Shown: one piece after another, positions 13,052 through 52,349 of the stretch
Layout of the letters: every line of letters begins with the position of its first letter
Numbering within the stretch: position 1 is the first letter of the stretch
Assembly (NCBI GenBank): GCA_033439295.1
Contig: JAVTLE010000001.1
Span: 2,480,001 to 2,544,000, forward strand
Reading direction: 5' to 3'
Length of the DNA: 64,000 nt
Origin: Deuterostichococcus epilithicus
Taxonomy: Eukaryota > Chlorophyta > Trebouxiophyceae > Prasiolales > Stichococcaceae
The notes under the pieces: model-generated
The model's database searches: none
What the model saw: only the letters and a program-made list of their open reading frames with translations
What the model was told of the DNA's origin: nothing
Position numbers and translations under genes: made by a program

Positions 13052-16000
13052 CTATGAAGACCGCCCTGCACCGGCATAGGCCTTCCCACGACCCCACTTG
13101 GCCGTCCCCTTGGACTTCAGCCAGCTGCCCCACGAGCTGCCACTGGCACCACCGCTGCCGCCGCCACTGCTGGCGGCATCGCCGTCCGCTGCGTTGCAGC
13201 CCTCCCTATGAGCGCAGCCAGTAAAGGAGGTCAGCATGCAGCTGCCTTACCTGCCAGCGTAGCCAATGAAGATGGATGATTGCAACATGTGAGCAGCACG
13301 TGTCAGGTGCCTGACTACGACCACTGGCTGCACCAAGGGGCAGACGTCTTTCTGCACTAGCCTCCCGCAAATGATCAGACATACGTCTGAGTGCTGTGTA
13401 ATGGTAATCAATGGCCGGACTGCATTGCCAGACCGGACCTTCCCTGCGGCACCATGCGAACCACCATGACATGGTGGATCGGAGCTTCTCTCCCGGCGCC
13501 AGCTGCTGTCGGCCCTTCTTGGCCCTTCCGCATACTATTTCATGACGACGACCATCCAGCACCACCTGCTGCCTGCCGCTTCTGCCTGCTGCGTTTCTGC
13601 GATGGCGGCGCGGCCCGTCCTTCCGCTCGTTGACCTCTTCTTTTCATAAGAGGACCCTTACCTATCGGTGTCTGCTGCAGCCCGCTTCTTGGCGCCGGGC
13701 TGCTGCATGTACGCGATGGCCGCCCGGCCTGCAAAGCCCGCTGCGGCCGACGCGACCGTCCATCCCGCCTGCCCAATGGAGCGCCCCAGGCCCTCGATGT
13801 GCGCGTCGGGTTTTAGCGCCGAGGCCACGGCTGCGGACGCGGAGGGAACAGGCAGCTGGAACAGCGTCGCCGGCTCGGCGACGTCCTCCGCGGCGTCTGC
13901 GTCAGACTTCGCCGCCAGGCTGTCCATTGTTGCCTGCGGACAGGGCTTCGAGGTTTGGGCACATGAGGCGGGCCTAAGGGCTCAGAGCTCAAGGTTCGCA
14001 CCAAGCCCCGAACAAGCGGCGCCCCTGATTGCTGGTGGACGAGAAGTCTCGGCACACTGCAGGCAGCACTGGGATGGACAAGCCATGGCAATGGGCCCTC
14101 GACACGAGCCGCTTGGTGTCCAACTGTCATCCAGGTGTGGGAGCATTTGTGCAAGGGGCGGCAAGGATCTAAACTACAAGGAACCATGAGACGTCACACC
14201 CGCAGGCCCGCCTCGTAGCTGGCCAGGAAGTGGTCGTGCGCGGGGCTGCTGGCGGCGCCGCGCAGGATGGCCTTCACCGCCGCGTTGACATCCAGCTGTG
14301 CCGCGATCTTGGCCGCGTACGCCGCGTCGCCGACGCCGCCCCCGGATGCGGCGCCAGCGTGCTTTGGCGTCCTCACCTCCTGCGATGCAGCGAGTCAGTG
14401 GAGCTCGAGTCTGAATTTTTGACTTGAATTAGTGCTCACATTTCCAGCTGCGCCACATTGATGGGTGACAGACGCCGCGTCAAGGCCAGACGCGCTAAAG
14501 CGTGATCGTCCTCACCTCCCGCATCATGTGGGATGAAACACAGGACCAGACGAGGCGACGCCTTCTGTGGGCACAATGGGCCTGAGCCGCTGATGTGCTG
14601 CCAGCGCATATTCAAGCCAGCTGCAGGACCGGCCCAGAGCCCTCCTGTCGTCATGGATGCGGCAGGGGGCGGGGCTTCAGCAGGAGAGGTGGGACTCCGC
14701 AGGATCGTTCGTGGCTCAGCCGGGCGAGGGCGCTCCCACCTTGCCGAGGATGAAGTGGTACGTGCCGAACGGGTGGTACGCTTGCGAGGTGCTCCGCATG
14801 GCCTGCGCGGCGCCAATGGTGACACTCAGAAACAACACGAGAAGCAAGCATGCGTGAGGCTCGCCGCGCTTGGTCACGGCTGCGGATCTGCTTTCGGCGT
14901 CCGGCGTCGTGGCAGCCTGCACATGCGCGCAGACAGCTGCGCAAGGGGAGCACGACAGCATCGTGCGTACATGCCAGCGCACTCGCATGCTAGGAGCGAC
15001 TAAAGAGCGAGAGAGGGCACCGACTTGGCGATGCTGCTGACGCCAGGAGCCGGCCTGCATCCAAGAGCAGCAACCAGCGGGCGAGAGGGCCAAGAACAGG
15101 GTGCGCACCATGGTCAGGCGGCCAAAAATTTGCCAGTAGTCGGCCACAGAGTTGTGCACCGTCTCCAGGCTCGCGCCCAGCAGCCTGCGCAAAGGACACT
15201 CAGTCGCCATGAAAGTCACGCAGCTCTGAGGAGGGCTCAGCTGAGTCGGCATCGACTGGCGCTCGGCACAGTACAAATGTCAGTCTCACTGCCGGCAGCG
15301 CGTGTTGAAGAGTAACGCTCAGCACCTGAGCAAGGTCCAGCGACAGGCTGTGCTGGCCTCGGTTCGGCATTGCATCTGCCACTGCCCGCACCTGGCGGCG
15401 TCATGGCCGCACACGAAGTCGTGAAAGTGCGGCGACGCTCGCGGTCCACCGGCTGAACCGCCTCGAAAGATGCCGAGTCCAGTTTGCGGTTCACAGAAGC
15501 CTCCGTGTCTGCCCGCACCTGGGCACGATGTCGGAGCCGCACACGAAGTTGTGGAAGTGCAGCGGTGGGTGCCCCGCGCGTCCCGCGGCGGCCTCCGCCG
15601 CCGCCTCCAGCTTCTGCAGCCCGCCGTACAGCTTCGTGGCGTCTTCCCCGTACAGCACCATCGGCGCGCCGAAGGTGACCGAGCCGCCGCCTGTGCGCCG
15701 GAACATACATTGGATTCAGGGCACCGCGTCACTGTAGGGGGCGGGTGGCTGCACTGCCGGCAGGTGCGCTTTGGTGTGGCGCCGGGACCCTGGGACGGGT
15801 CGACTGCCGGCTTTCTGGGCGCTGTGCTCTGCTGAAGCCGCACCTGTGCGGGCTTTCAGTAGAAACGGTCGTATCTGCCATGCAGGCAAGGACAGTCGCG
15901 TTGTCGACATCTATCAGTAGCGCTGGCGAGACCCAAGGGCGGCCTCCAGCAGCTGTGCCAGAAGGCTGTGCACACCTTCGGTGCGGTTTTCAGGATATAG

Positions 16001-18620
16001 AGTATTCAATTGCCATTCCAGGGTTTGCATCTGCACATCAAGCATCAGCAGGACCTCTATACTTCTGGTTCTGCGGAGGTATATGGGGGCAAGGCACGAT
16101 CATACTCCCACTTGCTGCTGCATGCGCATGCTGCTGATCGAAGCTTCTGGCTTGGAGGCAGCATGACTTCACCCGCCGCGGGGATGATTGACAAGCGCAG
16201 GCGCTGCCTGGACCCCAACACGAAAGCCTAGCTGCACAGCCTGAAGCCTGCCAACCTGGCCAGGTCCCGCCAGGTTGCGAAGCGCTGCTGCCGCTGGCTA
16301 GACATCCGCACTGGCAAGGCCAGGCAGGGCCAACAATCGCGCGGCAGGCCGCCAGTGAAGCTGCCATGCGAAGTAAGGAACGACAGGTGCAAGACACAAG
16401 GCAGCGGGATCCAGGATTAAGGAGTATGCAAACAGGAAACACCTCCACTGAAGAGCTCCGCGCAGGCGCGGTTGGCCAGCAGGTGCAGCATGACGCAGTT
16501 GGCGTAACCGCCGCCGAGCGAGTGGCCCGTAATCCAGACCGGCGGCTTCCGCTGCTTCTTGCTACCACGGCCGCCAGGCGGCAGCAGCGCGTCGGGCGCG
16601 GCGGCGGCGCGCGCCGAGATGAGCTCCCGAACCGCTGGCAGGTGTCGGGAAATGCCGTTGTAAAACCCCTGGTGCACCTGCAGCGGCGGCACGCCTGCAG
16701 AAAGAGGAACTGATGTGTCATGGTCAACGCTTCAGTAGTCCGTTCTTGCTAGGAAGCTGCCTTCCTGCCGCCGGCAGTTGGCGGGACACGCCAACGTAGA
16801 AACCCTATGGCCCTGCAGTGGCAGCAAGCCTGCAGAAAGGAAAGACAGATGCATGTCGGAGCGATGGTGCACTGGGCCTTGGTCTGAAAGGCTGCTCTGC
16901 TGTCACAGTGGCGGCGTGCCGTAGGATGTTGCCGAACCAGCAGCCGCCACATATGTGACCGAATTCTCAGGAACCCTGTGCATGGCAGTGTGCTTCGGCC
17001 CGTATCCCCTCCGATTCTATTGACTAGCTACTCTGCCGCTGCTGTGGTGCCCCGCAACGCCAGCGTCAAGACGCAAGATGGCATCTGTGACTGCCAGCCA
17101 GCAGCTGCAGGTGAACAAGCAAGTTCAAGATGGCATGAAGCTTTGATAGATGCATCACCCATGCTGCGACTGGTGGCCAGCGGCATTGCTGGACGTGAAC
17201 GCCAAATGCGTGCACTGCAGCATCCCCTCCGTTTCACCGCTGTGCTGAGACATCAGCCAATCATGCCGCGGCTGGTGGCCAGCGACATGGGGCGGATGTT
17301 ACGAAGTCGACCGGCACCTTGCAACGACTTCCTTTTTTCTGGAATCCACATGCTCATCCGGCAGGTGACGTCCTTGAGCAGCTCACCGCGCATGCTCTTG
17401 CTGGTGGCCAGCGGCATTGGCCGGATGTTGACGTCCACCAGCACGTCCTCCGTGCTGGCGGTGCCGCGGAAGGCGACTACCAGGCCGACGCCTTCCACCT
17501 CCCACAGCCCAAACTGCTCCGGCGACGACAGCCCCTCCCCCTGCACAGCCGCCCTGCGCGCAGCGCGTCGCCGCATGCTGGAGAAACTGGGGATTTGAAG
17601 GGAAGAGCGGTGCGCCGACAGGCGACCACTGACCGACGCCTTGGACAGAGCCCCATCTGCTCTGGTCACAAGCGTCCGCACCCTGCACCGCCGCCCTGCA
17701 CATTGGGCCATAGTGTACATCTCCACACCAGCTGCGCATGAGGAGTGGAACAGAAGCCCGTCCCCATTCAGAGCCGGCTTCATGGTTGCCCTGCTGCCGA
17801 CCATGGACTGAGGCGCATGCATCTCTGCCTCGCACGCGCCAGCCCGTCGCTGACTACAACCAGCAGAGTAGCCACCGGATGAAAGTTTCTGAAGCTGCAG
17901 ATACTGCTGCACCTGAACTCGACGAGCGTCGACTGCACGCGGGCGCGGTCGCCGCCCGGCCCCGCCAGCGGCACATCATGCCCCACTGTCTGCCCCACGT
18001 GGCTCTCGTCCACGTCGTAGATGAGGGAGCTCAGCCGCAGCAGCACCGCCGAGAGACGCAGGAACGCCAGGCTGTCCTGCAGAGTCCGGGGAAAGAATGG
18101 GGCCCAGACTCTGTTGGCGTGGCACCTTTTGGCATTGCGCAGCTGCACTGTCTCGGCCAGGCCGTCTCGCACAGACCTGCAATGGCTTGTGGAGTCGAGC
18201 AGACGAGATTTCGTGCACAGCAGCTCTGAGCTTGAGATGCGTTAGGTTTCTTGCCAGCCGTCGTGCAACAAATGTGCACAGGTACTCAACCTCCATGTAT
18301 GTCAGAACATTGCCATGCCAGCTTTGATGTCAGCCAGCACAAACCGTGCTCAAGGCTGCCTACGGCGGGTCCCTTGCCTGCTGCGGCGGCAGGTCCAACC
18401 AGCCATCGGTCGCGCCCCTGAAAACCGAGCTGGTGACTACGCCCCACTTGCCGAGAAGGCTGCCAGAGCCAGACTTGACGACGTCGCCGTCACCAGATCC
18501 GCAAACAGCAGCCGCGACCTCCAGCTGCTGCTCGGACTGCGAAGCCGCCTCGAGCTGCTGCCCTGAGGCGCCGCCGCTGCCGACGTCCGGCGCAGGGCAC
18601 TGCTGCAGCTCCTTCGGCAT
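13052..18620 (-). CDS. Class-3 (Lipase_3) triacylglycerol lipase
   Basis: The start ATG is at 18620-18618. Anchored exons: first ending near 18378, then 18176 to about 17935, 17540-17387, 16694-16443, 15690-15519, 15184-15109, 14802-14740, 14379 to about 14200, 13933-13662, and 13205-13052 with the stop. The oxyanion-hole strand is VVAFRGTASTEDVLVDV and the nucleophile elbow is GHSLGGGYAN (Ser nucleophile in GxSxG). Following are TFGAP and HFHNFVCGSDIVPR (acid region), then AYHPFGTY as in Lipase_3 C-terminal halves. Family role is hydrolysis of acyl esters of glycerolipids. The N-terminus lacks an obvious secretion signal and the C-terminus is Ala/Gly-rich with WGSWLKSKG. The first junction (possibly a GC donor gcaagg after 18378), the end of exon 2 and a possible exon near 14450-14520 are uncertain. 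Several introns contain decayed copies of adjacent exon borders. Confidence 0.85.
14490..14526 (-). repeat. Exon-edge echo in lipase intron
   Basis: Resembles the acceptor border of the exon starting at 14379 (14351-14390), sharing gtcctcacctcc and flanking bases. It lies just upstream of that exon in transcript order. Here the frame meets a stop after about seven codons. Confidence 0.5.
15382..15435 (-). repeat. Exon-edge echo with donor site, lipase intron
   Basis: Decayed copy of the end of exon 15690-15519. It encodes HFHDFVCGHDAAR where the true exon has HFHNFVCGSDIVPR. It retains the donor with the same following bases (gtgcgggcag), about 135 bp downstream in the transcript. Confidence 0.75.
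16773..16839 (-). repeat. Exon-edge echo with acceptor, lipase intron
   Basis: Copy of the start of exon 16694-16443 (compare 16637-16700). It shares gcctgcagaaag at the acceptor and PLQ codons after it, and sits just upstream in the transcript. Confidence 0.7.
17152..17300 (-). repeat. Two exon-edge echoes downstream of a lipase exon
   Basis: The end of exon 17540-17387 (encoding PMPLATSKSM) is repeated twice in the following intron, at about 17262-17300 (PMSLATSRGM) and 17152-17195 (AMPLATSRSM). The three copies share ctggtggccagcg and are spaced about 110-130 bp apart. Confidence 0.75.
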
Positions 18621-19868: not shown

Positions 19869-20300
19869 ATGGTGCTGTACAACTTCAAGGCCATTGGTGT
19901 GGTGCCACCCGCCTCGGACTTTGTGGACATCGTGCTCAGCAAGACGCAGCGAGGCACGCCCACCGTGGTGCACAAGGGCTGGGCCATCACCCGCATCCGG
20001 CAGTTTTACACCCGCAAGGCAAGCTGGGAATGATTGCCGCTGGTACTGCCTGCACATGGCTACCTCCCGCACGTCCTGCAGCGATTCAGGAAGCATGCGT
20101 CGAGTGCTCGTGGCGTGCACAGAATGCAGAGAACGATGCATACCACACATCGTGGCTGTCGGTCAGCAATAATCTGGGTCGGGCCTCATACTGCGGCAGG
20201 TCAAATTTGCACAGCAAAACTGGCACGACCGGCTGACGACCATCGTGGATGACTTCCCCAAGGTGGCTGTGGTTCACTTCTTTGTACTTTGCCCCCCCCN

Positions 20301-20340
<40 letters not shown>

Positions 20341-23300
20341 CCACCACCACCACCACCAGTAGCAGCAGCCGACGATGCAGCGTGATTACATCTGTGTGTG
20401 CGGCAACACGGCTCAACCAGGCTGCTGTCACAGCCGGCAACCTTAAAGAAGCTCACAACCTGTCAACTCTGGGTGAGGTTCAATGCGGCGGCAGGTGGAC
20501 GACATCCACCCCTTTTATGCGGACCTGCTGAATGTGCTGTACGATCGGGACCACTACAAGCTGGCGCTCGGGCAGCTGGCCGTCGCGCGCTCCCTCATCG
20601 ACCGCATTGCCTCAGGTGCGGGCGGCGGCGCTCGCTGCTGCCGTCCTGCATGTGGTTCGTGTTTCGTGCAGCAGCTGGCAGCTGACACCAGCATCTACTG
20701 AAATGCGGCGCCATACTGCAGCCTGCTGGGTAGAGTGGCCCGTGAACACAGTGTATGTCTTCACATGCTCACGAGAGCGTGCAAACAAGCTCTTGAGCAA
20801 TGCCACCTGCTCAGGATGCTGACTCGCCCTGCTGCACGTGCAGACTACGTGCGGCTGCTGAAGTATGGAGACAGCCTTTACCGCTGCAAGGAGCTCAAGC
20901 GCGCGGCCCTGGTGCGGTTTTCCCATCTCACGTGCACCGCCATATCCGCGCCTTGCACAGCAACACCGTGTGTGGCCTGATCAGCCAGGGCTCAGCGGCA
21001 GAGGAGTGCAGGCGATGCGTGTCACGCCTCAGCGCCCTCAGAGGTCACATACGCACGGACCACACAGCGCCATTTGACAGCGTGGCTCCCTGTTCTTGCG
21101 CGTGGTGTGCGCTCACAGGGGCGCGCCTGCACAACCATGCAGCGGCAGGGCTAAACATGTGTCCTCGTGTCGGCTGGGCCTCACATCTCAGTGCTGCCGC
21201 GCTGCAGGGGCGCATGTGCACAATCATGAAGCGGCAGGGGCCGAGCCTGAAGTATCTGGAGGAGGTGCGCCAGCACATGGGCCGCCTGCCCTCCATCGAC
21301 CCCGCCACCCGTACCCTCATCGTGTGCGGCTACCCCAACGTCGGCAAGTCCAGCTTCATGAACAAGGTGCGGGCTGCCTCGCGGACGAGCTTCTTGCAAC
21401 CAGTCGTGCTGCACCCTGGAAGCACACGTGTCAGCTGGAGTTCGGCTCGTGCTGTCGCGGGGACGCTGCCCCACTAGCCCTCGACTGTAGACCCTGCACC
21501 GACTTTAATCCCCGCAACCCGCCCCCTGCAGGTGACGCGGGCAGACGTGGAGGTGCAGCCGTACGCGTTCACCACCAAGAGCCTGTTTGTGGGCCACATG
21601 GACTACCGCTACCTGCGCTGGCAGGTCATCGACACGCCCGGCATCCTGGACAGGCCCCTCGAGGAGCGCAACACCATCGAGATGCAGGTGTGGTCTGAGG
21701 CCAGCAAGGGGCCTGGGGCTTGGACGGGGGCCAGTAGCATCGGGCAGACAGGTGCCGCGCGGCGCGGCGCAGGGCCTGCGAGTGCAGCTGCGACCGCGCG
21801 GCGCCGGCGCCGCTGTGGGTGACATTGCTGGACGGCGCAGGCATCGTCTACATGCTGTGGCAGCCTTCACCTTGGTGATCTGCGCATTCGGTGTCACAGC
21901 ATTCGGCAGCACAGCATGGCGGCGGGTGTGCCTGCAGGAGGCGGCGACTGGGCAGTATCGGATCTGACAGGTTCCCTCCCAACACTTCCGGCCTCACGCC
22001 TCCATGATGCCCCCGCAGAGCATCACCGCGCTGGCGCACCTGCGGGCGGCGGTGCTGTACGTGCTGGACCTGTCAGAACAGTGCGGCTACACCATCGCGC
22101 AGCAGGCGGCGCTGTTCCACTCCATCTCCCCGCTCTTCGCCTCCAAGCCGCTTTTGGTCGTCGCTAATAAGGTGCGGCAGGCTCCCAAACTCGCAAGCGA
22201 CCTCAAAGGTTTGTCTCTACCCGTGAGGTGTCTGAACAGCCCCACTGGGGTCCCCGGCGGCAACGGAGCATCGATAATGCCTCCAGCCGTCCAGCGCGGC
22301 ATGAGGGAGGTTCAAGACGAAGATGTGGCTGTGCTGCTCCAGCAGTGCGCACCTGGCTGCATATTTGCTGAAACCGACAGCAGCGCGGCAAACCCGGTGC
22401 GCAGGTCGACGCGGTGCCGTGGGAGAAGCTCAGCGAGGCGGACCGCACCACCATCGAAGGCATGGGCGTGGAGGCCGCCAAGCTCTCCTCAGGCGGTGCG
22501 TATGTTTAGAGTCCTTGCACCAGCACCCGGGCGCCGGTGCTCTGCCGGAGCTGCCCACGGCTGGCGGTGGCCCCGTGGCGACCCCCAGCAGTCTGCGGGG
22601 TGGCGCAGCTGCGGGCAGGCGCCGGAGCAGGCGAGGCTTCTGCCTGGCGAGCTGCAGCGCTGCCCATGTCTCTGCCACCGAGGCGCTCCAGGGAGTCCCT
22701 GTTCAGGCTGATCACCATACCTCTTTGGCTGGCTTCCGCACAGGCCTGGCGGGCGCGGGCGACGAGACGGCAAAGGTGCTGCAGATGAGCGCGCTCAACG
22801 AGGAGGGTGTCATGGCGGTGCGCTCCACTGCCTGCGACCGGCTACTCGCCTCGCGTGTGGACCTCAAACTCAAGGTGGGGAGCATTGCACCTGGGGGTCC
22901 CACATCTGTGCTCTTCTGTGGCCCCCTGTGAAGTGTGCGCTAGGGATTGAGCACGTGGCGCGGCCGGCTGCCAGCCACCGGCGCAGACCCCCAGCTGACG
23001 CAGGCGAGGCTTGTTGAAAGTCCGTACTCTTTTGTCAGTGCAGAGTCTGGAGGTCGGCCTGTGCTGCTTTTGCCATGCAGATGGCCGCTGCCCCGTCGTG
23101 GCTTCAGTGGCTCAAGTTGCAGCCCCTGCGCACAGCAACAGCTGTTGCGGGGGCGGCACAGGGAAGCATGACGCCACTGCGCGGCATTGGCGCCCTCCCA
23201 TAGGCACAGCAATGCAACATTATCATTGTTACAGGGCAAGCGCGTGGCGGACGTGACCAACCGCATGCACGTGGCGCTGCCCAAGCCGCGCGACGGCATG

Positions 23301-26300
23301 GCGCGGCCGCCAGTCATCCCGCCCTCCGTGCTCGCCGCGCAGGCTGGCGCGGCGCCAGCCAAGGCCGCTGCTCGCAAGCTGCAGAAGGACATCCAGGTGC
23401 AGCGTCGCAGCAGGCCCCGCCTGCTTTCTGTGGGAAGACCTGTAACAGTCAGGAGTGATCAAGCTGTTGTAGCTTGCTGCGAACATGCTGGCCATGCGAT
23501 GCATCCGGATGCTGGAGTTCGCCAGTCCTCGTCCCTCATGCCTGGGCAAGGGCCCTCAAGTTGCAACTTGGGGAGCTTGCAAGCCAGCAGGCCGTAAATG
23601 TAAAGCCGTTGGTGGTTGGGCAGCTGGGTTCATCCAAGGTGCCAGATGAGGCAACGCAGCCTTGAGCACCGCTCAGACTGGCAGCAGACTCTGTGTCTGA
23701 GGCGAGACGAGATGATGGGCGCTCTCAGTAAATGCTTCATGCTCGGACAGGCACATAAATGACAGGCGCCTGCATTGTGCATGCAACAGGTGGCTAAGGC
23801 ATGCCAAGACTGGGCGGCATGTGGCTCGTGTCCACCTGCCACTTCTCGCTCGCATGCCTTTGCCGCACGATGGCTTGTACTGCGCAGCTGCCATGCCGTC
23901 GCCCTGTTTTGTCCCGGCATAGAAGTAGACGCAAGCTCTGCTCAATGTCTGCGTCCGGGGATGCGGATCCATGTAGCACGTCGAGCACTTCGGCATCCTG
24001 TCGGAGAGTAACATGCCAAGGCTGTGCCAGGCAGTGCCAAAATCTCGGCAATGTTTGGCCTGCAGACTTGGCAGGAGGAGGGTGCGGTTTCCACATTAAC
24101 CATGACTATGGGCACATGTCATGCAGCAATGCTGGGGGCAGGACGAGCGGCCCGGCGCTCTTTCAGCTTTCAGCTGTCCTCCCAACTGCGAACACCGTTT
24201 TCCCTGACGGTATGCAGGGAAGAGCAGCCATTTGCCACTCACGAGCGCTCACTGTATGCTTGGGTAGACGACCTCACTAGCAGCCTTCTCTTCATCCTGA
24301 TGGCGGTTTCTGCTGTGTAAACAGCAGGAGAAGGGCGGTGCAGGCGTCTACCGTATGGACGAGCGGCTGCTGGGACGTGGAAGAGTACGAACAGCAGCTC
24401 GTATAACTCTGGCTTTCTCATGCTGATCTAGCCAGGTTCCCACTCGCAGGAGGAGAAGGGGGGCGCGGGCGTCTACTCCATGGACGAGCGGCTGCTGTGG
24501 GGCGCGGTCGCTGAGGACGAGCGGCGCGACATCCTGCCGGAGCTGTGGGGCGGCCACAACATCGCCGACTTTGTGGACCCGGACATTGAGGAGCGGCTGG
24601 CGGCCCTGGAGCGGGAGGAGGAGCTCTCGGCAGCCGCCTGGGAGGAGACCCAGGAGGTGAGGACATCGACATATTGATAAATGCGTGGCAGATCCCGGAG
24701 ACGGCCATGTGGACAAGGCGGAGCTGACTCCCGAGGAGCGCGCCATACTGGCGGCCAGAGCTCCAAAAGCACAACTGCACGGGCAAATGTCGCGACCGTT
24801 GATCACAGGTGCCATCTGCCGCTGGCTCAGGCCCTGGCGCTGGACGTGGAGGAGCTGACCCTCGCGCAGCGCGCCGCACTGGCGGTCGTGCCTTTGCAGC
24901 AACAGGCATGAAACAATGATCCTCGCACCGCAGGCCATGGGCATCGACGAGGAGGAGCTGACTCCCGAGGAGCGCGCGACGCTGGGCGCCATCCGCGACA
25001 AGAAGAAGCGGCTGGTGACGGCGCACCGCCTGAAGAAGGGCGCCGCCAACAACCAGGCGGTGCTGCCGCGCCGCGCCGACGCCAAGCGCTCCTCCACCAC
25101 TGGCAACCTCAAGGTGGGGCCTCACCAGGGTTGAAGCAGAGAACCCATGCTGCGGGGGGTCTGGCGCCGCTCGCAGCTCTGCGTGCGCGCGCGGCGTACT
25201 GCTGATGCGGGCCGGCAGGGGCGCAGGTTGCTGCTATATGGCACGTCCAGGAAGCACACACTTCTTTGGCGGTGTTCCGTGCAGGGCGCCTGTGCAGTGT
25301 TTTCATGGAAAAGTGCGCCAGCCGCGCAGGAAGGCTGCAGTGCACCACTGTGCATCGAGTCCCAGGACTTTGCCTGGTTCGATTTCAGTCCCTCCCCCTG
25401 AACCCTGAACAGGCCGACCTGGAGCGGGTCGGCATCGACCCCAGCGCCGCGCTGGCGCGCGCTCGGGCGCGCTCGCAGTCGCGCGCCGGCCGCAAGCGCA
25501 CCCGCTCCGAGGCGCCCGCGGGCAGCGAGGCAGCAGAGGGCATGGACGTGGACGGCGCGCCGCTGCCCAAGAAGCGCATCCACAGCTCCAAGTCGCGGTG
25601 CGTGCGTGACACGTCGGGGGGCGTCACCTGTGGCGTCGCTTGTGGCGTGACTGCAAAGTTGGCCTCTAGCGCCACTGGCATTGTGTTGCCATCCTGAATG
25701 TCAAGACTTCGACATGAAGGCAGCTGCCCTGCGGGGCATTGGCTGGCTATCTGGCAGCTTCTGCGCTGTCATGCTGTTGCCTCACGGTAGCCAGGGAAGG
25801 ATGAGGGGTAAACCCAAAACCCGAAGCCAGGAGCAACCCGGCGCCGGCAGCAGCCACAAGCCCACCAGCGCGCCGCCAGTGGCTCCGCAATAGCATGCTG
25901 CATCGCAGTGCTTAGCCGCCACCTTGGCGATGCGCTTGCTCCGTATGTGCATGGAGCATCGCAATGCTGAGCCACCGACGAAAACACCGAGTTATCGGTT
26001 CAACCATCCGCGCAGGTCCATGTCGCGGGGGCGGGCGCTGTCCGTGGCCAAGCCCACAGCCGGCAGCGGCCTCAAGGACGCGGCGCAGCGCAACGCCGCC
26101 GTCAAGATCGCCGACCGCCAGCAGAAGCGCGCTGGCAAGGCCGCCCGCAAGGTGGGTGCCTCGCTCCGCCGCCGCACCCTGCTCACCGCCTCTTGCTGAG
26201 CTGCACAATGGAAATGAACTGCAACAGAGGGGGCGTGCAAACCACGTCCAGCAGCGATGCAGCTGGCATTGCGAATTGGGGACTGGACTGCGTGCCGCTT

Positions 26301-26617
26301 CCTAGGCCGCAAGCGCACTGCCACATTGCTGGCGGCATGGTGGTGACTTGCTGCGGGCATGCGATGCATGCAGGGAGAGGGCGACAGGCACATTCCGGAC
26401 CTCAAGCCCAAGCACCTGTTTTCTGGTGAGCGCCTTCGAGTAGCCCGCCTGCTGTGCCTGCGTTTTCACGACTTTTGGCAAGGTCATCGTTACAGTCTTG
26501 CATCTTGGAAGCTTGTCGAACTGCGGCTGGCATGCAGCCTTATTGCATGTTCCTAAGGTTGCTCTCCTGTCCTGCGTGCCAGGCAAGCGCGGCAATGGCA
26601 AGACGGATCGGCGGTGA
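19869..26617 (+). CDS. NOG1: Nucleolar GTP-binding protein 1 (NOG1)
   Basis: Sixteen phase-consistent exons encode about 682 residues: 19869-20018, 20200-20262, 20495-20615, 20844-20911, 21208-21366, 21532-21687, 22019-22171, 22405-22495, 22744-22874, 23235-23396, 24450-24656, 24934-25113, 25413-25597, 26016-26151, 26374-26425, 26583-26617. The N-terminus [13 protein letters not shown] and [14 protein letters not shown] is diagnostic of NOG1. G1 is [10 protein letters not shown]3 is DTPG, and G4 NKVD is split across the exon 7/8 junction. The tail [10 protein letters not shown]...KTDRR matches the basic NOG1 end. NOG1 is a conserved OBG/TRAFAC-type GTPase that joins late nucleolar pre-60S particles. 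Intron 1 appears to use a GC donor (gcaagc at 20019). Introns 4, 10 and 11 contain decayed copies of the next exon's start. Confidence 0.97.
20300..20358 (+). repeat. AGC/CAC trinucleotide microsatellite with an ambiguous base
   Basis: An N at 20300 follows a C run, then about 13 AGC units and several CAC units, inside NOG1 intron 2 (20263-20494). The N marks an unresolved base or small assembly gap, so repeat length here is unreliable. Confidence 0.95.
21113..21157 (+). repeat. Exon-edge echo with acceptor, NOG1 intron 4
   Basis: cacag then ggggcgcgcctgcacaacca resembles the true start of exon 5 at 21208. The frame is lost to a stop (ggctaa) just after the homologous RQG codons. Confidence 0.75.
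24320..24385 (+). repeat. Exon-edge echo with acceptor, NOG1 intron 10
   Basis: aacagcag then gagaagggcggtgcaggcgt repeats the start of exon 11 (24450). It reads [16 protein letters not shown], compared with [16 protein letters not shown] in the true exon, then diverges. Confidence 0.85.
24686..24895 (+). repeat. Two exon-edge echoes, NOG1 intron 11
   Basis: Two decayed copies of the start of exon 12 (24934): 24686-24757 ([13 protein letters not shown]) and 24825-24890 ([13 protein letters not shown]). The true exon reads [14 protein letters not shown]. The second copy keeps a tcag acceptor and an open frame, so it could act as an alternative exon. Confidence 0.8.
25893..25976 (+). repeat. 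Direct repeat in NOG1 intron 13
   Basis: A ~28-bp block (gcatgctgcatcgcagtgct) recurs 56 bp later with few changes. No exon similarity noticed. Confidence 0.6.
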
Positions 26618-30808: not shown

Positions 30809-30897
30809 ATTGATATATTCTGTACGTGGCGTAGTACGGTACAGAAGCAGACCAACAATCTTGGCGCATTGAGAGCTACGCCACGAACCAACTGACC

Positions 30898-39034: not shown

Positions 39035-39271
39035 TGCCCTGGGGGGCTCCGCTTAAGCGTGCCCTATCGACGGTGCGTAGGTCGTCTCCTGCAGCTTTGC
39101 ACGCTTGGTGCTGCCGCCAAAATCTTCGTCAGCGGGCGAGGCTCCTGTAATGGGCCGCGAGAGCCGCGAGGGCCGTGAGAGCCGCGAGGGCCGAGAGAGC
39201 CGCGTCCACGCAGCAGAGTTTTGCAAGCTATGTTTAGCTGAGACCTTCGCATTTGTGGACCTTGATATCAA

Positions 39272-40099: not shown

Positions 40100-40447
40100 A
40101 CTGCCTCAAATCTTCTCCTTCCCTGTGTTTCCTCATTCACGGCGGCGCCCAAAAAACTATTTGCAAGTGCACCCGCCCGGCACTTCTTCTTCCTCCCATC
40201 CTTCTCTTCTCTCACACCGGCGCCGAAGTTTAACCAAGTGCTGCTGGGCAGCTCGGGGGCCCGCCCACCTCTTCCCTCTCTTCCCATTCTCCTATTCACA
40301 AGCGCCGTAAAGTATGAGTGCTGCTGAGCAGCTCGAGGACCCACCCTCCACTTCTTCGTCTTCCCTCTTTCCATCGTTTCCTTAATTCAAACTGGCACCA
40401 AGAACAATTCAAAACCTACTGCGCTGCTCGAGGGCCGCCCACTTCTT
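40100..40447. repeat. ~85-bp tandem satellite, about 4 degenerate copies
   Basis: Copies begin near 40106, 40195, 40272 and 40368. Each has a pyrimidine-rich cttcttc block, a ggc(g)cc(a/g)aa block and a gctgctgggcagctcg-like block. Copies are well diverged. Confidence 0.75.
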
Positions 40448-40898: not shown

Positions 40899-43800
40899 TC
40901 AGCTGGCAGCGCCACCACGGCCACTCCGCCGTGCGATGACGCTGCCCTGCGGGCCAGACTTCGCTGCTGCCTCTCCGCCTGCATCGGCGCCCCCCGCTGC
41001 CTCGCCGCTTCGCCCCGCTGCCGCAGCGGCCCCCGCCGCAACCACGTCCGCGGGGCTGTCGCCAACCGCCGCCGCCTCGGAGCTGCAATCGCCGCCGCCA
41101 ACCGATGTTGCTGAATTCAGCGTGCGCGCAATAGCATCCACCGGCGCAGCGAAGCGGCGCAGGTTATCCGCAAAAGCGCGCCGTCGCTTCTCGATCAGGT
41201 CTGGGTGCTTCGCCCCCAGGTTGTAGTACTGCGCGCCAGGAGCAGCAGCTCAATGAGAGCCGGCATGGACTGGTGCCGTCCTGAGAGTTTTGCCTCGACA
41301 GGATCCACTGCAGCTGGTTGGCAGTCCAGCAGCGGGACCAGGCAGGGGTTGGGAGCGCAGTGCCATCGGCGGGAGCCCCGCAGCCTGCCGCAGCTTGGGC
41401 AGCGGCTGCAGCGGTGGCGGGAGGCGGCCCGCGCACATACAGCAAATCGACAAGCGCCGCAGCGCCGGCCTCCCGCTGCCGTATATTCTCGAGGTTTCGC
41501 AGAGCAGGCGATGTGAAGTCAGTAATTGGAAGAGGTTTGCTAAATTATTTGTTCAAGCACGCAACCCGCGGCACCCACCTTGAGGTAGCCGTCCCAGGGC
41601 GCGACCTTCAACTTCGCCTTCGAAGCGATCAGCGCCTGCGTGGGCAGAAGCACACGTCAAGTATGTACCAGGCTCGACACAGACTTTTGACCCATGCTGC
41701 CAGGAGTCAGTCTGCAACTGTGAAATTCCGGTTGCATGGCGCCGCCACAGCCGGTTGTGTGTTCTCAGCATGCGGCAAGCACCCACCACCAAGCGCTGGA
41801 GGCATGACAGCGCCCCCCAAAAGTCAGCGCGCTCTGCGCCATGGGCGGCGGCACCAGCAGATACGGTCAGCACTGCTGTTGGAAATCAGACAAGCAGAGC
41901 AGGCGTGGGGGCACCTGGCATTGCTCTGCGAACTGCTGCGCGGTTTCTTCTTCCCGCCGCGTCTGCGGCGGCAGGAAGTGCACATCGCACACCACCGCCC
42001 ATGAGGTCATGAGCTTCAACTGCGCGCATGGAACCAAGAGTTTGGCAAATCACGTGCAGGCCAGTCTGCAAGTTTTTGGACTGAGACAGGCATGGCCTGC
42101 CGGCGAAGACGCAGTCTGTACTTCACTGGTGGCCCAGGGTGGCGCCGCACGCATGTCGACAAGACGACTTTGTTTCAGTTGCGGAGGTCATGTGCTGCCA
42201 TGCCACGCAGCATGCCAGGCATGCATATGCGCATGCTTTGCAAGTTGCCGAACAGCTAACTCCCGAAATGCTCAATACCAGCACATGGTGCAGCGTGCAG
42301 AGGTTTCAGGTTTCAGGGTTGACCGAGTGCTGGGGTGCCCGAGCACAAGACACAGGAGGCAAAGGTTGGAGGGACAGGGAAGGCACTGCACCCCTTGTAG
42401 ACAGCCAAACTATGGCGGGCGCACCAGGTATGCTCCAAAGGACTGCTTCCTGGAGTGGCCCAGACCCTGAGAGTGCGACTGTGCGGCAACCGCGCTGCAG
42501 GTGCACATCGTAATTCAAGCTCCACAGAAAAGGCGAGCAACTGCGCACCAGGTGCGCGCTGAAGGACTGTTTCTTGGAATTCCAGAAGGCGTCCACGAAG
42601 ATCTTGTTGTAGCGGATGGCAATGGGGAACACGGCCGCGCCCAGGTCGAAGGCGCCACGCTTGAACATGACGCAGAACTCGTTGTTGACACACGTGCCCT
42701 GCGCATGCAGCGGAGTTTGAGGGTTCAGGGCCCTGCGCATGAACATGCAGAGAACTCGTTGTTCACATGTGCGCCCTGCGCCAGCGGCAGGGGATTCAGG
42801 TTTTGAGATGCCGTGCTTGGTCATAGATCAGCAACCCTTTCTCATTGTCATGGGGGGCGGACGCGCCTGCCGCGCGGCTTACAGCCAGGGCCTGGCGCGA
42901 CCATACCATCTGAGAGGCCGTCTTGAATTGACAAAGTCAAGCAAACGAATGTGCCAGCGCCTCATCCGCCCGCCGGGCCGTTCCTCGCATATGCGGCCCG
43001 GCCGGTGCGGCGTCCTCCATGCGCGCAGGCTGTCGCCCCCACGGCAGGCGCTGACCCTACTCCCTAGCTGCGGGCCCTGACCCGGGCGTGTCAGGGCACA
43101 GCTGTCGTCCCGCATGCTCGATAATTCCGGACACCAAATCCGCACACACACACCAGGCCCACCTCCGGGAAGATGAGCAGCGGTGTGGAGTCGGCGGAGG
43201 CGACGTGGCGACGCATGCGCTCCGCCACCAGCTGCCTGTCCCGGACCTGCGCAGACGCAGCCGCAGTCAGGGCTTAGGGCCTGTTTACAAGCTTGGTTTC
43301 CGAATTACTGTGTTTGGGCATCGCAGGCCCCACTCTCAGGCCAGGCCAGCCCAAAGCAGAGGCGCCCCTGTGCGCCTGCACTCCCCTCCGCTCCCGTTCG
43401 AGCCTCCACTGGACACCAGCCCCGTGCCAGTCCCGCTGAACAGGCTCCTTATCCGCGGGGCGAAGATCACATGCTGATTCGTCGACTGCCTGCACAGCGC
43501 CAGGACATCCCGATGTCCGACAGGGCAGTCGGCGGGAGCGCACCTCGTTGCGATTGAACCACAGGCAGCCGAGACAGCCCAGCACCTGCGTCTGCAGGAA
43601 GCCCACCTGCAACAGCATGGGAGCAGAGGTGAAGGTTGCACCACTGGCGCGGACCTAAAAGATTATTGAACTGACGTTGTCCACCGGCCGGGCTCGACAG
43701 CAGTCCCCGCGGCGTAGAGATGGCCAAGCAGCAGGGTCGATTGCAAGCAGTTTGCGAGCGGGTTTATTGCATATTGTTTGCGTTGCTGTGTGCAAAGCCA

Positions 43801-45717
43801 GCCTCGACTGCAGGAGGCTGAATGTGAACTGTGAGAGGGGCACTGCTGTGTCCAGACAAGGGACATTTGGCGGCGCCCTCACCCAGCCGGGGTGCAGCTG
43901 CATAATGACGGCGAAGGGGGAGTAGGCAGTCAGGATGATGTAGTCGATCATGGAGGTGTGGTTGCACACCCACACTGCATTTTCCCGCGGCGCAGGCCGC
44001 GGCCCGTGGTACCTGCGCGGAACACGGACGGCAATCGTAAGCGTGCACAAGGCGCAGCGCGAGACTTGGTGGTTGGGCCACAACGGCCTTCGTCACACGA
44101 TGTACCCCAGGGCATGTACCCCAGGGCATACCGCGACTGCAGCTCTTGGTGCAGTCAGGCAGCACGCAGCTGCAGGTCGAGCCACTTGATCGGTCCATCT
44201 CAATGTCCGATGAGCCCACAGGCAAGCACTGGCGGCGCGCACTTGATGACGCCAGTCCAAGAGGCCACGAAGATCCAGCACTGCGCCTGCACCAGCGCTC
44301 GCTCGATATGCGACCGCCGCGGCCCCGCCTGCGCACCAGTGGACATAGGTAGCCCTTGAGCCGCTGGCGCCACGTCGGCGTCGCCACATCAACCATACGG
44401 AGTTCCTTGCTCCCAAAACGTTTTGCCAGGCTGATGGGGCGCTGGGGGAGATGCACCCGTAGCTCATGGGCATTGCAGCATGCTGCAACGGCTCGGAGGC
44501 GCTAGGGGCTGCAGCTTGCATCAGTGCGCACCTGGAGCAGCGCGCGGATGCCAAAGAATGAAATGAAGAAGAGGACGAAGCCCAGCAGCAGCATCGCCAG
44601 CCTGCATCAAGTGCAGGCCGTGGCATGGGCGGGTCAGTGTAGGAATACAAGCCTCTTCCACAGGACTGTTCTGCGACAACAGGATGGGGGTCCACATGCC
44701 GGCACTTCTGCAAGGCTGGTCCCGCTGCTGACCCGACCTGATGACCCAGATTCCCCAAGGGCACACAGCAGTCTCGGGCACACCTGAGCGGGAAGAGGAT
44801 GGCCCAGCGGAAGACACAGCCGAGGCACCACAGGGGGAACAGGTACACGTTCCAGTTCCAGGGGTCTGGGCGCGCCCCCTGGAAGCAGCGCAGGAAGGAG
44901 TCGTCCACCACCGCCGCCGCCGCATCCGTGACGATGGGGCTGATGTTCAGCAGGTCCTGCCTGCGCAGCGGGGGCGCACGGGGCGGGCATCGGATGCTTG
45001 CCCCACGCAAGTCTTGCGGGGGCCCTTGCCACTGGGATATTTGGCAACTCCAGACAGTCCATCCTCCCGCTTCTGCCTCGAATGGCAGATCGTACGGCTC
45101 ACACACCAGTTGACGACCACTGGGCGAGCTGCTGTGCGGACTTGCGTCAAGACAGGACGGGCAAAGCGCGCACAGGAGGGAGCCGCCCGAGTGCGACGAT
45201 ATCCGCTGCGCCTCCTGCGCCGCCGCCAGGTCCTGCACGAGCAGCATGTCGACCGCTTGCCCTGTGGATTGAGTAGCCATCTGCAGGAGAAGCTACCTGC
45301 ACAGACAGTGCGCCCGCGAGCAGCGCGAGTGCGCAGCCCCACCTCCAGGGTGCGGTGGATTTTGAAGCCCTCATCCTTGCGCTCTGAGAAATCGTAGTCG
45401 CGCAGTTCGTTGCTGCTGAACGTTCGGTTCTTCAGCCTGCAAGTTGCAGATGTAACTCGGCACCACACCACGGGATGCGGGCCTCGCAGAGTGGCAAACA
45501 TGCCTTGCGCAAGCTCAATGCACAATATATTGCACAATATACGGTTACTCGTGCTGCAGCAAACTGGTGCATCGGGATGCCATGTTAGCAAGACTTACCC
45601 TTGTACGCCCCCGGTGGAGGTGAGGCGGCGCAGTGTAGCAGCATTCGGCTCACCGTTGCCGCTGAAGGTCACAGACTTTTGGGCGGCCTTCTGGCCGTCT
45701 GCGCCACTACTGCCCAT
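40899..45717 (-). CDS. GPAT9: Glycerol-3-phosphate acyltransferase, GPAT9 type
   Basis: Twelve phase-consistent exons encode about 486 residues: 45717-45599, 45436-45343, 44956-44784, 44601-44532, 44328-44243, 44012-43883, 43606-43544, 43246-43163, 42698-42549, 42019-41915, 41635-41579, 41228-40899. The plant/animal GPAT9 order is kept: DLLNISPIVTDAAAAVVDDS, PDPWNWNVYLFPLWC, two hydrophobic spans (LLGFVLFFISFF), FVASWTGVIKYHGPRP, acyltransferase block I NHTSMID, FAVIMQLHPGW, LWFNRNE, block III LLIFPEG then TCVNNEF, PIAIRYNKIFVDAFWNS, LMTSWAVVC and PWDGYLK. Known role: acylation of sn-glycerol-3-phosphate to lysophosphatidate at the ER, the first step of glycerolipid and oil synthesis. The C-terminal ~65 residues are a Gly/Ala-rich extension. 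Echoes flank exon 42698-42549. A further small exon near 45261-45195 is possible. Confidence 0.95.
42424..42465 (-). repeat. Exon-edge echo with donor, GPAT9 intron
   Basis: Copy of the end of exon 42698-42549. It reads SRKQSFGAYL then a gtgcgc donor; the true exon reads SKKQSFSAHL with the same donor. It lies about 120 bp downstream in the transcript. Confidence 0.8.
42733..42785 (-). repeat. Exon-edge echo, GPAT9 intron
   Basis: Copy of the start of exon 42698-42549, placed just upstream in the transcript. It shares gaactcgttgtt (VNNEF codons) and the gcgc-rich acceptor region. Confidence 0.8.
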
Positions 45718-48231: not shown

Positions 48232-50162
48232 ATGGAGGAGGATGCACGGCGGAAGGCGGAGCTTGCCGCCGCACGGGCGGCGCTAGCGGCGCGCATCCCG
48301 ACGGACCAGTTCTTCGAGCTGCCCGGCCGCCCCACGGTCGTCTTCCAGGTGACTGACTGGTCAATTCCGGGCCGAAATCCAGCGTCGATGCGATTGGCTG
48401 CACAACAACTGCGCTCAGCGAGTCGATGCGCCGCGGCGGCCCGCACCACGAAAGCAAACAGCACATCCGCTGGCGCGTGCGTCATGCTGCAAACGGCACT
48501 GGAACCTGCCAGCACTGGAGCCTTGCCCCTGCAGCAGGGCACGGGACATCTGCCTGCTGAGGCCCTGCCAGGTCCACACTTCAGCCTGTCGCCTGACTTG
48601 AAACCCAGGCGAAGGACTACACGGCGAATAAGGCGGAGGGGCGGGCGCTGGCGCGTGGCGATGTGCCCTTCCTCTTCCGTGCCTTCGAGGCTGGCCAGGT
48701 GAGCCAATTGCCAATGATCTGCTGCTGGATGTTCCTTACCTCGTCTGCGCCTGCGAGACGACGTGCTCCTGCTGTTCGATCAGCATCAGCAGCCACCACC
48801 ACTGCTGCTGCTGCTGCTGCTACTGCTGCCGCTGCCGCAGCCGCTGCTGCTGCTGGCCGCCGCACTGCTGCAGCTGCCATGTCGATGCTGTTGCTGCCGT
48901 AGCTCGTGCTAGGAGGCACAGCCAACGGCCCTCTGGCAGTCGCTGCAGAGCTGTGAGCCCTGCTTTGCTGCCTGATGCCCATGCATCTTGGACGCCGCCG
49001 CCAGGGCCTGCTATGCAGAACAGCTTCGGAGCCCGCACACAACCTGCTGCGTGCGGCGCTTGATGTGTCCAACCCTCTTAGCTGAAGACGCAGTGCTCAC
49101 GTTTCTACTGCATGTGCAGGCGCCGCCGCCGCGGCCGGGCACCAAGAAGGCGGAGCAGCCGCGAGCGGCCACAATCCACGAGTACCTGGACTGGACCGTC
49201 ACCTCCTCCGCTGCAGAAGAGGAGGACGACCTTGTGCGCCCTCGTCTTCAGTTGCTCTTCCTGCTATGCCTGCCATTTCCCTAGCACCTGTTGGCCACTG
49301 AACGACTGGTGGGACCATCACCTTCACCGCCGTGGATCAAGAGGATTAAGAGTAATGAGACCTGGTGACCCCTTTTTTCCAACGATGTTGCCTCTCAATT
49401 CCCTGCTCCTTCCCTTTCCTATCCCTTTCCCCCTGCTTCAAATTGTCCTCCGTTCCAGATTCTGATCCGGACGGCTGTCACCTCTGCCGCCGCTACGGAG
49501 GAGCACAGAATGACTTCATCCTGTGCCCTTCGCCCGTTCTAGTGTCTCACAGTTCGCCACCAAATTACAAGTGTACCCGACTGGACAACCCAGCTGTTAT
49601 GCTGCTCCAATAGAAAGCGAAACCTTACGGCATTGTTCCCCATGCAGTCTTTCAGGCTGGACCTGTGACTGGCCACTTCTGCTTGCAGCACACGCTGTGT
49701 GAAAGGCGAAGGTGATGGGTCGATGGATTCAAAATCGATAGCCGCCATGTGCCGGGTTTGAGAAGCTGGTGCCACGCTTGCATTGGCAGGAAGACAGGGA
49801 ATGCAGCGGCCGCTTGCAGAGCCCGTGTGCTGCCGGCGCAGGCCCCTGGCGTCTTCCAGGTGGTAAAGCTGCTGGCGCGCTTCCGGCCGGGGAGATTATA
49901 ATGCTGTATTTTCCTGTGGCAGCCAACGGATTGACCATGTGTTTACCTGAACAGGACTTTGGCGGCTTCCGGGTGGTGACGCTGCTACCGCGCTTCCGGC
50001 CGGCGTGGCCGCCGCCGGGCGCTTATGACAAGCCGGTGCCGCGGCGGTCGACAGCCATGGGGGCCCCCAAGTGAGTGCTGCCATGAGGCAGATCTTTGTG
50101 TCTGTGGGATCTAAAGTGGAGAACAGAGGGTGCTGGTGTAGTCAGCTGGGGACTGGGCGCTG

Positions 50163-50239
<77 letters not shown>

Positions 50240-52349
50240 GACGAAATTCCAAGCAGAGGCCCGATAGTGCGCCCTGGCCAGCAGATGACCGTCTCCTGCC
50301 GCCCTGAGCAGTGCACCGCCGCAGCATACCGGCTCGTTCGGCACTGGCATGCACACTCGCCGCGCATACCTACAAACGCCTGAAAGCTCGAAGGCTCAAT
50401 GTTGGGAGCGCTCATGCTTTCTGCTCTAAATGAAATCGCTATCTCAGATCAGCAGGTGGCTGCTGGCACGGTGTAGCTGCAGAGTAGGCAGCTGTCAGGT
50501 GCCGGACAGCTGAGCCAGCTTGCGCCTCCCCCTTCCCAGCGCCGCGTACCTTGCCTACACCTGACATGCGCGACACGCGACCCCCATCTCGCCAGCCGCC
50601 GCAGGGGTCCACTGCCGCAGCTGCTGACGGTGGAACCGCCCATGCGCTTTGCTGGGCGCCGGTCGAGCGGGAGCCGCCTACGGACTGTGACTACTTTCTC
50701 TCCTGGTCGACCCGAGATTGCACTGGACTTTCTGATACTCGCCTCCCCCTGGCGCCGCCGCAGGGACCCGATGCCGCAGCTGCTGACGGCGGGCAAGCCC
50801 ATCTGCGCGGCCACCATCCGCGTGGGGCTGGGGTATCTGGAGGTCCCATTTTTTGCCACCGCGGAGGCAAAGCGCAACCGCGGCTACGGACGTGCGCTGC
50901 TGGAGGCGATTGAGGACGTCGCACGGTGAGTAACTGCTCGCTTCTTCCCACCCAGCATGCGTCTTCGATGCAGTGTTTCACGACACCGAGGACACTCCCC
51001 GGGCCCCTCGTGGCAGACCCCGCTACTCGTTGTGCCGATCGAGGCAGGTTGTGCTGCGGCAGACGCTGCCTGCAGCAAGAATGCTTGCGCCCGTGTCAAG
51101 AGACGCCCCACCGACGTCAGCGCAGCACCTGATCGCCCTGCGCTGATGGTTTGGGCATTGTCCTGTAGTGCCTGCCGGCCTGTTCGTGTGCTGCTGCTGA
51201 CAGTGCGCATGGGTGGCCTCACCGCTACAGCGCTCTGCCTGCGCATGCATTGCAGCGCACCTCAACCGCCTGCTCCGGCAGCCACTGGCGAGCAGCTATC
51301 CAGCAGAGTTGTGTGTGCTTCCCCGCCGCTACGGACCGCTGCGACCCGGCAGCACCTCGAAACCCTGCACCCGCGCCTGCAGGTGCCTGGACATCCCGCT
51401 CATCCTGCTGTGCTCCACGGACGACCCGGTGACGCGCAACACCTGGCAGCGCCTCGGCTTCCTGTTCACGGCGGAGGAGGACCTGCGCCGCTTCAGTGTG
51501 GGCCCTCGCGATTTACTGCACATGGACAACACCGTGCAGGTGAGCTTTGCAGGAGGTCGCAGGCCCGGATGTTCCAAGTCTGGCGGAGGAAGATATATAT
51601 TCATTCTTGACATCTTGTTGACCCGCGCCGCTTTGAGGTGGAGCCGCCCGACCTGCTGCATGTGAGTCAGCGCTCTTGTCAATGGCCCGCCCCGATCTGT
51701 CTGTGCACTGCATCAATAGGTCATCTGCTGAACTGGCATCAGGCGCCGCTGTCAGATGTGCACCACTCCGACATATGGGTTGCAAGTCTGTACCAATGTT
51801 CCTTGCACAGACTGGACACATGTCATCTCGTGCGACCTGCCGCAGATGCACAAGATGGTGCCGTCGCAGCGGCCGTGGCAGTCGTTCATCCTGCGGCACG
51901 GGCACTGGGCGCAGCGGCTGTACTATGATCCCGACCCGGCGGGCACCCAGCGGGCGCAGGAGCAGCTGCACCGTCAGCAGGCGCAGCGGGAGGCGCAGCG
52001 GGAACAGCAGCAGCAGAACCGGCAGCGGGAACAGCAGCAGCAGGCGCAGCAGCAGGCGCAGCAGGCGGCACGGCAGCAGGCACAGGAGCAGCAGCACGCA
52101 CAGCAAGGGCAGCCTCCAGGGTGGCAGCCGCTGCAGTCGATGGCGAATGGCGGCTTTGTGGCCGCTAACGGCAGCGTGGCAGCCGGAGACGGCACCTGCC
52201 ACGGCGCGCACGGCAGCGCGGCGGTTGCGGTGCAGCCGGTAGTGCTCGACCCGGTCGGTGCGGCAATGAAGACGAAGCCTGGGGCTGCCTCACATGGCCG
52301 GTCTGATGTCGCCGGCCAGCCGCATGGCAGCCAGGCGGCGTCGCGATAA
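48232..52349 (+). CDS. GNAT-like acetyltransferase-fold protein with Gln-rich tail
   Basis: Exons 48232-48348, 48609-48698, 49120-49233, 49955-50070, 50764-50925 and 51383-51539 join in phase. A final exon begins between about 51744 and 51814 and stops at 52349. The ATG opens MEEDARRKAELAAARAA, a charged helix. Exon 5 has the GNAT motif-A-like NRGYGRALLEAIEDVA preceded by a strand-rich AATIRVGLGYLEVPF. Exon 6 has IPLILLCSTDD and TWQRLGFLF, as in the last strand and helix of GNAT folds. The layout recalls PHD-associated plant acetyltransferases, but no PHD Cys cluster was seen. The last exon has SQRPWQSFILRHGHW, then a tract of about 45 residues rich in QQQ and AQ. Substrate unknown; a nuclear role is inference. 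Three exons have intronic echoes. Confidence 0.7.
48805..48860 (+). repeat. Imperfect GCT-repeat tract
   Basis: Runs of gctgctgct broken by actgctgcc inside intron 2 of the GNAT-like gene. Confidence 0.85.
49850..49897 (+). repeat. Exon-edge echo, GNAT-like intron 3
   Basis: cttccaggtggtaaagctgc copies the start of exon 49955-50070 (cttccgggtggtgacgctgc). It reads FQVVKLLARFRPG, compared with FRVVTLLPRFRPA. Confidence 0.8.
50165..50237 (+). repeat. (GCT)n microsatellite, about 24 units
   Basis: Pure GCT/CTG array in intron 4 (50071-50763) of the GNAT-like gene. It is in an intron by my model, so its expansion would not alter the protein. Confidence 0.98.
50588..50655 (+). repeat. Exon-edge echo with acceptor, GNAT-like intron 4
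   Basis: gccgccgcaggggtccactg then ccgcagctgctgacgg copies the acceptor and start of exon 50764-50925 (gccgccgcagggacccgatg then ccgcagctgctgacgg). Confidence 0.85.
51625..51666 (+). repeat. Exon-edge echo with donor, GNAT-like intron 6
   Basis: Copy of the end of exon 51383-51539. It reads RRFEVEPPDLLHV then gtgagt; the true exon reads RRFSVGPRDLLHM and ends before gtgagc. Confidence 0.8.

Follow-up and report, generated by a model that had tools for sequence, protein, structure and literature searches.

In the potato RdRp gene, a single tandem duplication crossing a junction led to intron gain, as described by Ma, Lan and Niu (2016, PMC4974935), who set that case against the AGGT (Rogers) model; in the latter, the tandem duplication lies inside an exon and the intron ends match the opposite exon in register (PMC4974935, PMC2891723). 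Introners, i.e. intron-making transposable elements, are described as families of similar introns (PMC9860276). Here we analyse a 64,000-nucleotide stretch of the Deuterostichococcus epilithicus genome (C1:2480001-2544000; hereafter the window, with positions counted from its first letter), together with further samples of the same genome, where many introns hold same-strand copies of the neighbouring exon's edge, decayed and apparently non-coding, along with a few splice-site bases (hereafter echoes). As in potato RdRp, a tandem duplication across the intron–exon boundary would copy the acceptor and the exon head (PMC4974935); as in AGGT intron gain, the duplication would be local, tandem and near a splice motif (PMC4974935, PMC2891723); and, as with introners, the change of intron content would be episodic (PMC9860276). 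The potato case is one recent event, by which a new intron was gained (PMC4974935), whereas here dozens of old copies have apparently been swallowed by an existing intron. Among the matches listed in the openly readable literature on intron gain and on splice-site, exon and small tandem duplication, there is no report of genome-wide decayed exon-edge copies.

Echoes of exon edges in adjacent introns

The genome comprises 46.8 Mb in 21 contigs, from which 234 kb were analysed: the window, the 100 kb upstream of it on the same contig and one 10-kb stretch from each of seven other contigs, the last being DNA unseen by the author of an earlier note on the window. An annotation-free scan for local same-strand matches (25-700 bp apart, score of at least 18, low complexity removed) gave 126 direct pairs in the 234 kb, the corresponding counts being 5 for inverted pairs and 8.5 for same-strand pairs at 3-7 kb. 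Because this excess is partly made up of coding repeats and intergenic tandem repeats, gene models were needed. They came from a hidden Markov gene finder that was trained without supervision, starting from seven NOG1 exon stretches, and run ab initio (no RNA-seq); it returned 54 genes and 357 introns, with medians of 236 bp for introns and 124 bp for exons, and learned the splice consensus CAG/GTGAG for donors and TGCAG/G for acceptors (slash, splice junction).

The main test covered the 347 introns of at least 50 bp and compared each with the 60 bp of exon adjoining it on either side, namely the tail of the upstream exon and the head of the downstream one (694 edges). At a score of at least 15, exon edges match their own adjacent intron 23 times in 694 (8 tails and 15 heads), as against 0/694 for the reverse complement, 0/363 for the wrong exon end, 1/590 for neighbouring introns within the same gene and 1/2776 for introns of other genes; the wrong-end control is of restricted scope, since offsets are typically about as long as one exon. 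One of the 23 matches is proline-rich (g52, L018), and two involve predicted mini-exons (24831-24881 and 49842-49874), which are taken to be echoes. A self-alignment of the kind that the earlier note had proposed as a check, made on the 234 kb, favours the existence of the copies. Exon edges match the introns of other genes just once, so that the echoes are not dispersed; at the level of exon edges, this would set them apart from introner families (PMC9860276).

Split by region, the 23 matches number 6 in the window (220 edges), 4 in the upstream 100 kb (200 edges) and 13 on the seven other contigs (274 edges), so that the signal is replicated beyond the contig of the window. A strict list of pairs (score of at least 17, offset of at most 340, distance to the edge of at most 38) holds 38 distinct copies, which involve 33 of the 694 edges and 29 of the 347 introns; genes g42, g49 and g52, which read as lysine-rich, repeat-like or proline-rich, are omitted from the list and still included in both denominators. 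These copies are hosted by 15 of the 44 intron-bearing genes. Outside the window, the hosts are, among others, an alpha/beta hydrolase, a WD40 protein (best match THOC3, below the cut-off of the family), a Cid1-like poly(A) polymerase, an HRQ1-like helicase and another protein that carries a helicase C-terminal domain; hosts in L016 and L019, whose translations look repetitive or alanine-rich, are less certain than the window genes. Variation in echo frequency from gene to gene is not significant (p=0.067; 18 genes with at least 8 introns). The echoes are confirmed as real, and they are present on six of the eight sampled contigs.

Orientation, anchoring and decay

Acceptor echoes lie upstream of their exon and donor echoes downstream, a rule that the earlier note had put forward. 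The same note's statement that most copies include the splice-site region is also supported, as the alignments mostly extend to the splice junction. Position identity, like the local intron-half analysis below, was computed on 34 records (28 distinct under the script's own key). In the 21 acceptor records, mean identity is 0.20-0.23 at -40 to -16, 0.41-0.44 at -15 to -6 and 0.81 over the last three intron bases, then about 0.75 over the first 30 exon bases, falling thereafter; the 13 donor records give a similar, noisier profile. True acceptors show an enrichment of the branch-point-like motif CTGAC between -40 and -21, a zone in which echoes have no ungapped identity. Most copies are some 90-160 bp away from their source. 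Offsets of 75-170 bp account for 34 of the 42 strict pairs; these 34 have a median of 124 bp (5-95% range 93-155) and show no preference for a reading frame (9/12/13 modulo 3). Six edges have two echoes, against 0.76 expected if copies were independent, and positions 4500-5000 of L016 hold a plain array of whole units, each with an exon half and a homologous intron half. Echo extension scoring was dropped for breakpoint placement as too permissive.

Intron lengthening, as proposed in the earlier note, is consistent with the greater median length of echo-bearing introns (369 vs 235 bp, p=0.046), although long introns also offer more room for copies. The register of AGGT intron gain, a route that the same note had brought up, was looked for in the sampled introns and not found: at a score of at least 12, matches number 0/291 between the intron 5' end and the head of the next exon and 0/298 between the 3' end and the tail of the previous exon, and at a score of at least 10 they number 2/291 and 0/298.

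Differences between echo and exon are spread nearly evenly over codon positions (118/586, 105/579 and 144/584, i.e. 0.20, 0.18 and 0.25; 559 codons), unlike those of a real paralogue pair (18/210, 7/210 and 27/208), so that echoes show no coding constraint. Of 25 acceptor echoes, 17 retain the splice-site AG, near the neutral expectation of about 0.69 (arithmetic from the divergence), and of 9 donor echoes, 5 retain GT or GC. Selection to kill or to keep echo splice sites is rejected, since the AG count fits neutrality. The supply of alternative splice sites, which the earlier note had considered, is not supported by the AG count or by the offsets with their lack of frame preference.

These data bear on the idea that the echoes might be genuine exons, alternative or duplicated, that the gene models miss or include only in part, which we regard as very improbable. 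It could draw on three observations: (i) the gene finder called mini-exons overlapping echoes at 24831-24881, 49842-49874 and 50605-50643; (ii) many echoes keep an acceptor-like site, with a median matrix score of 5.6 against -0.2 for intronic AGs; and (iii) the echoes contain two stops in 559 codons where 6.2 are expected (P=0.06), a weak hint toward coding. Against it stand the almost even codon-position differences, the modest retention of donor dinucleotides, the lack of frame bias in the offsets and the NOG1 protein, which aligns with PDB entry 6lss (E 5e-196) with no gap across the junction at 21208. Because the alignment is ungapped there, the echo before 21208 lies outside the NOG1 protein; near the junctions at 24450 and 24934 the protein is poorly conserved, and the query lacked mini-exon 24831-24881, so that the test is weak at those two places. 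Mutually exclusive or duplicated exons, for which a second copy under coding constraint and with both splice sites is expected, do not agree with the codon pattern and the 5/9 donor count.

The window also offers a relative date. A partial paralogue of the 3' end of the class-3 lipase gene (window 13559-14924) lies near C1 position 2468000 (L002), with exons 92% and introns 78% identical, and this paralogue, 25 kb upstream, has in common with the window gene a weak echo near 14518. As both paralogues carry it, that echo is older than the lipase gene duplication. Steady-state duplication is rejected, for none of 34 copies scores above 38, where 50% are predicted to do so. A single old wave roughly reproduces the observations: such models give a copy length of 45, an identity of 0.82 and a correlation between the two of -0.54, and the observed values are 44.5, 0.81 and -0.70. 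The recurrent process envisaged in the earlier note is therefore not supported as a present-day one, because long young copies are missing.

An assembly artefact, e.g. mis-joined divergent haplotypes, might be suggested by the similar divergence of most copies and by the scattered Ns in the assembly. Nevertheless, such an error has no evident reason to be anchored at splice sites, the copies occur on several chromosome-sized contigs, their codon pattern is unlike coding divergence between haplotypes and one echo is common to two paralogues; we find this origin hardly credible.

Probable tandem duplication across splice junctions and competing processes

The most economical account of the echoes, and a probable one, is that small tandem duplications straddled splice junctions during an old episode; it explains the orientation rule, the anchoring at junctions and the serial copies. 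Under this account, many tandem duplications of about 90-165 bp would have accumulated in the genome during a past period. Those straddling a junction could have survived if the outer junction (i.e. the second acceptor or the first donor) was the one spliced, leaving the mRNA unchanged, while the inner junction copy would have turned into intron and then drifted. The exon half would stay readable since its partner is a working exon kept by selection; intron halves, free to change on both sides, would mostly have faded. Existing tandem units may have given rise to extra copies and thus to series, and the outcome would be longer introns with leftover splice-site copies. We find no evidence of a function for the echoes.

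The earlier note's proposal of tandem duplication across junctions thus agrees with orientation, anchoring, series and the whole units of L016, but several observations weigh against it, the first being the scarcity of intron halves. In an anchored test (offsets 70-170, distance of at most 12; 28 of the 42 pairs) starting from -4, 21 of 28 intron halves lie above the median of a mismatched null and 6 above its 95% point, whereas equal drift rates predict 15-19 of 28 visible halves; when the first 15 intron bases are skipped, just 3 of 28 are seen. By local alignment, 2 of 34 intron halves exceed the null 95% point, and the mean score is 6.70 against a null of 6.36. Likewise, the offset class of 75-170 bp holds 32 exon–intron pairs (including a few low-complexity ones and multiple pieces of some echoes) vs 3 intron–intron pairs, one of which reads as an echo–echo pair and one as part of a 54-bp repeat. 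If duplication were uniform and rates equal, a ratio near 0.9 would be expected and, after fitting, 13-23 intron-only pairs (18-20 in another estimate).

This gap closes only when old age is combined with slower echo drift. With every copy old and echo sequence drifting at about 0.6 times the intron rate, the model yields 1.5 intron pairs and 37% visible halves, but the factor of 0.6 is an assumption; evenly spread ages leave the gap, with 18.5 intron pairs and 73% visible halves predicted. Even old-wave models expect 12-17% of copies above a score of 38, more than the none observed. Further difficulties are the short near-identical copies in L019 (31/31 bp) and L013 (39/41 bp), whose flanks are unrelated, the series in which the outer copy resembles the exon no less than the inner copy does (24712 vs 24828 in NOG1), and the ratio of transitions to transversions, which is 186/181 in echoes and 116/77 in paralogue introns.

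The shortage of intron halves is what copying focused on the junction itself would produce, i.e. patches of about 30-60 bp of exon edge and splice site copied into the intron, with a favoured distance near 120 bp, by template switching or RNA-templated repair, without an intron half. Besides the 32 to 3 ratio and the absence of an intron-half signal by local alignment, the offsets speak for such copying, as they concentrate near 124 bp (93-155, n=34), whereas 6 of 10 intron-only pairs lie at 33-56 bp. We nonetheless consider it unlikely, in view of the 6 of 28 significant intron halves and the 21 of 28 over the null median in the anchored test, of the whole units in L016 and of the inflation of the 32-pair count by low-complexity pairs and multiple pieces per echo. 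Moreover, young copies would be expected if patches were still being copied, and just 2 of 34 combine an identity of at least 0.925 with a length of at least 28. Slightly less likely again is the fuller proposition that a process tied to splice junctions copied 30-60 exonic bases and a few splice-site bases about 120 bp into the intron during a past episode, lengthened about one intron in twelve and left decoys behind. With an old wave and echo drift at about 0.6 times the intron rate, there is no need for a process specific to junctions, which would be the more surprising result. If true, the junction focus, the preferred distance and the scarce intron halves would indicate an intermediate that knows the splice site, e.g. 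pre-mRNA.

Whole-unit tandem duplication could also have been followed by occasional gene conversion from exon to echo, so that exon halves stay similar and intron halves diverge. This would suit the short near-identical cores with dissimilar flanks, the outer copies that are at times as close to the exon as the inner ones and the decay of intron halves beyond prediction. The patchiness is confined to few cases, however, and the high-identity copies (2 of 34, against 1.5-3.1% expected under old-wave models) show no clear excess, which makes conversion a doubtful addition to tandem duplication alone.

Echoes gene by gene and their bearing on intron evolution

The earlier note had reported about a dozen short, diverged, same-strand copies in four unrelated genes, and the window indeed holds 12 distinct echo copies (ungapped score of at least 17) between 15406 and 50643. 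All are same-strand and 29-72 bp long, the longest consisting of two merged pieces. Their hosts are g23 (class-3 lipase), g24 (NOG1 GTPase), g28 (acyltransferase) and the g29/g30 GNAT region; host names are from Pfam, for which the g30 part alone of the GNAT region was searched. Weaker echoes occur at 28406-28442 (score 15), at 51620-51660 and near 14518.

The class-3 lipase gene model (13315..18620, minus strand) hosts four strict echoes and one weak one, all on the minus strand. The acceptor echo of exon 16443-16694, upstream of it at 16768..16839, is in two pieces (offset 135/136) and keeps the splice-site copy CTTTCTGCAG. Exon 17387-17540 has a series of two downstream donor echoes, the inner at 17262..17300 (source 17391-17429, offset 129) and the outer at 17153..17188 (offset 231). 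A donor-side echo of exon 15519-15690 lies at 15406..15434 (source 15536-15564, 17 bases from the edge, offset 130), and a four-way alignment places the weak acceptor echo of exon 14200-14379 at approximately 14498..14532, with the echo edge near 14518. At the acceptor edge 17540 of the same gene there is also a 24-bp pair, 17534-17557 and 17676-17699 (offset 142), mostly on the intron side, which is possibly an echo with a surviving intron half.

Four acceptor echoes are found in the NOG1 GTPase gene model (19869..26617, plus strand), all on the plus strand. They comprise the echo of exon 21208-21366 at 21116..21150 (source 21205-21239, offset 89), that of exon 24450-24656 at 24322..24372 (source 24447-24497, offset 125, 86% identical) and two of exon 24934-25113, i.e. 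an outer copy at 24697..24757 (offset 234) and an inner one at 24828..24882 (source 24931-24985, offset 103), the latter called as a mini-exon. The end of NOG1 exon 1 (AAG/GCAAGC) exemplifies the approximately 13% of predicted donors in the whole sample that have GC instead of GT, a figure to which gene-finder error may contribute in part. Elsewhere in the window, exon 28150-28265 has a weak minus-strand acceptor echo of its edge 28265 at 28406..28442 (source 28234-28270, offset 172, score 15).

The acyltransferase (PF01553) gene model (40899..45717, minus strand) has two minus-strand echoes, both of exon 42549-42698: an acceptor echo at 42751..42788 (source 42674-42711, offset 77), in which GCGCAG is kept, and a donor echo at 42419..42454 (source 42543-42578, offset 124), in which GTGCGC is copied. 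On the plus strand, the GNAT region contains an acceptor echo of exon 49955-50074 at 49839..49890 (source 49952-50003, offset 113) and an acceptor echo of GNAT exon 50764-50925 at 50595..50643 (source 50754-50802, offset 159), each partly called as a mini-exon, and a donor-side echo of GNAT exon 51383-51539 at 51620..51660 (source 51480-51520, offset 140, 71%), which is below the strict threshold and followed by GTGAGT. Upstream of the GNAT exon is a long CTG repeat (50163-50238), of which the gene finder made the start of g30.

Two kinds of repeated sequence were also observed in the sample. An approximately 80-bp repeat (GCAGCCCCTGGCTGCTGGAGGGCTGG and similar) forms short intergenic tandem runs in several places (L005-L007; window 40237-40372), and a gene-poor stretch of lower GC (L003-L006; C1:2380001-2420000) contains a local family of five predicted genes of about 190-250 aa with a common start like MGPPAWPSASKEKFDLK.

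Conserved exons serve here as the reference that makes otherwise unreadable ancient intron duplications visible and datable, so that intron lengthening by small tandem duplication becomes measurable from a single genome. Roughly estimated, and provided that duplication is uniform and detectability is as modelled, about a tenth of intron DNA would have been derived in this way. Junction-straddling duplications may be absorbed into an intron that is already there, a point relevant to the frequency with which new introns arise by duplication, and the echoes provide a concrete set of candidate decoy splice sites.

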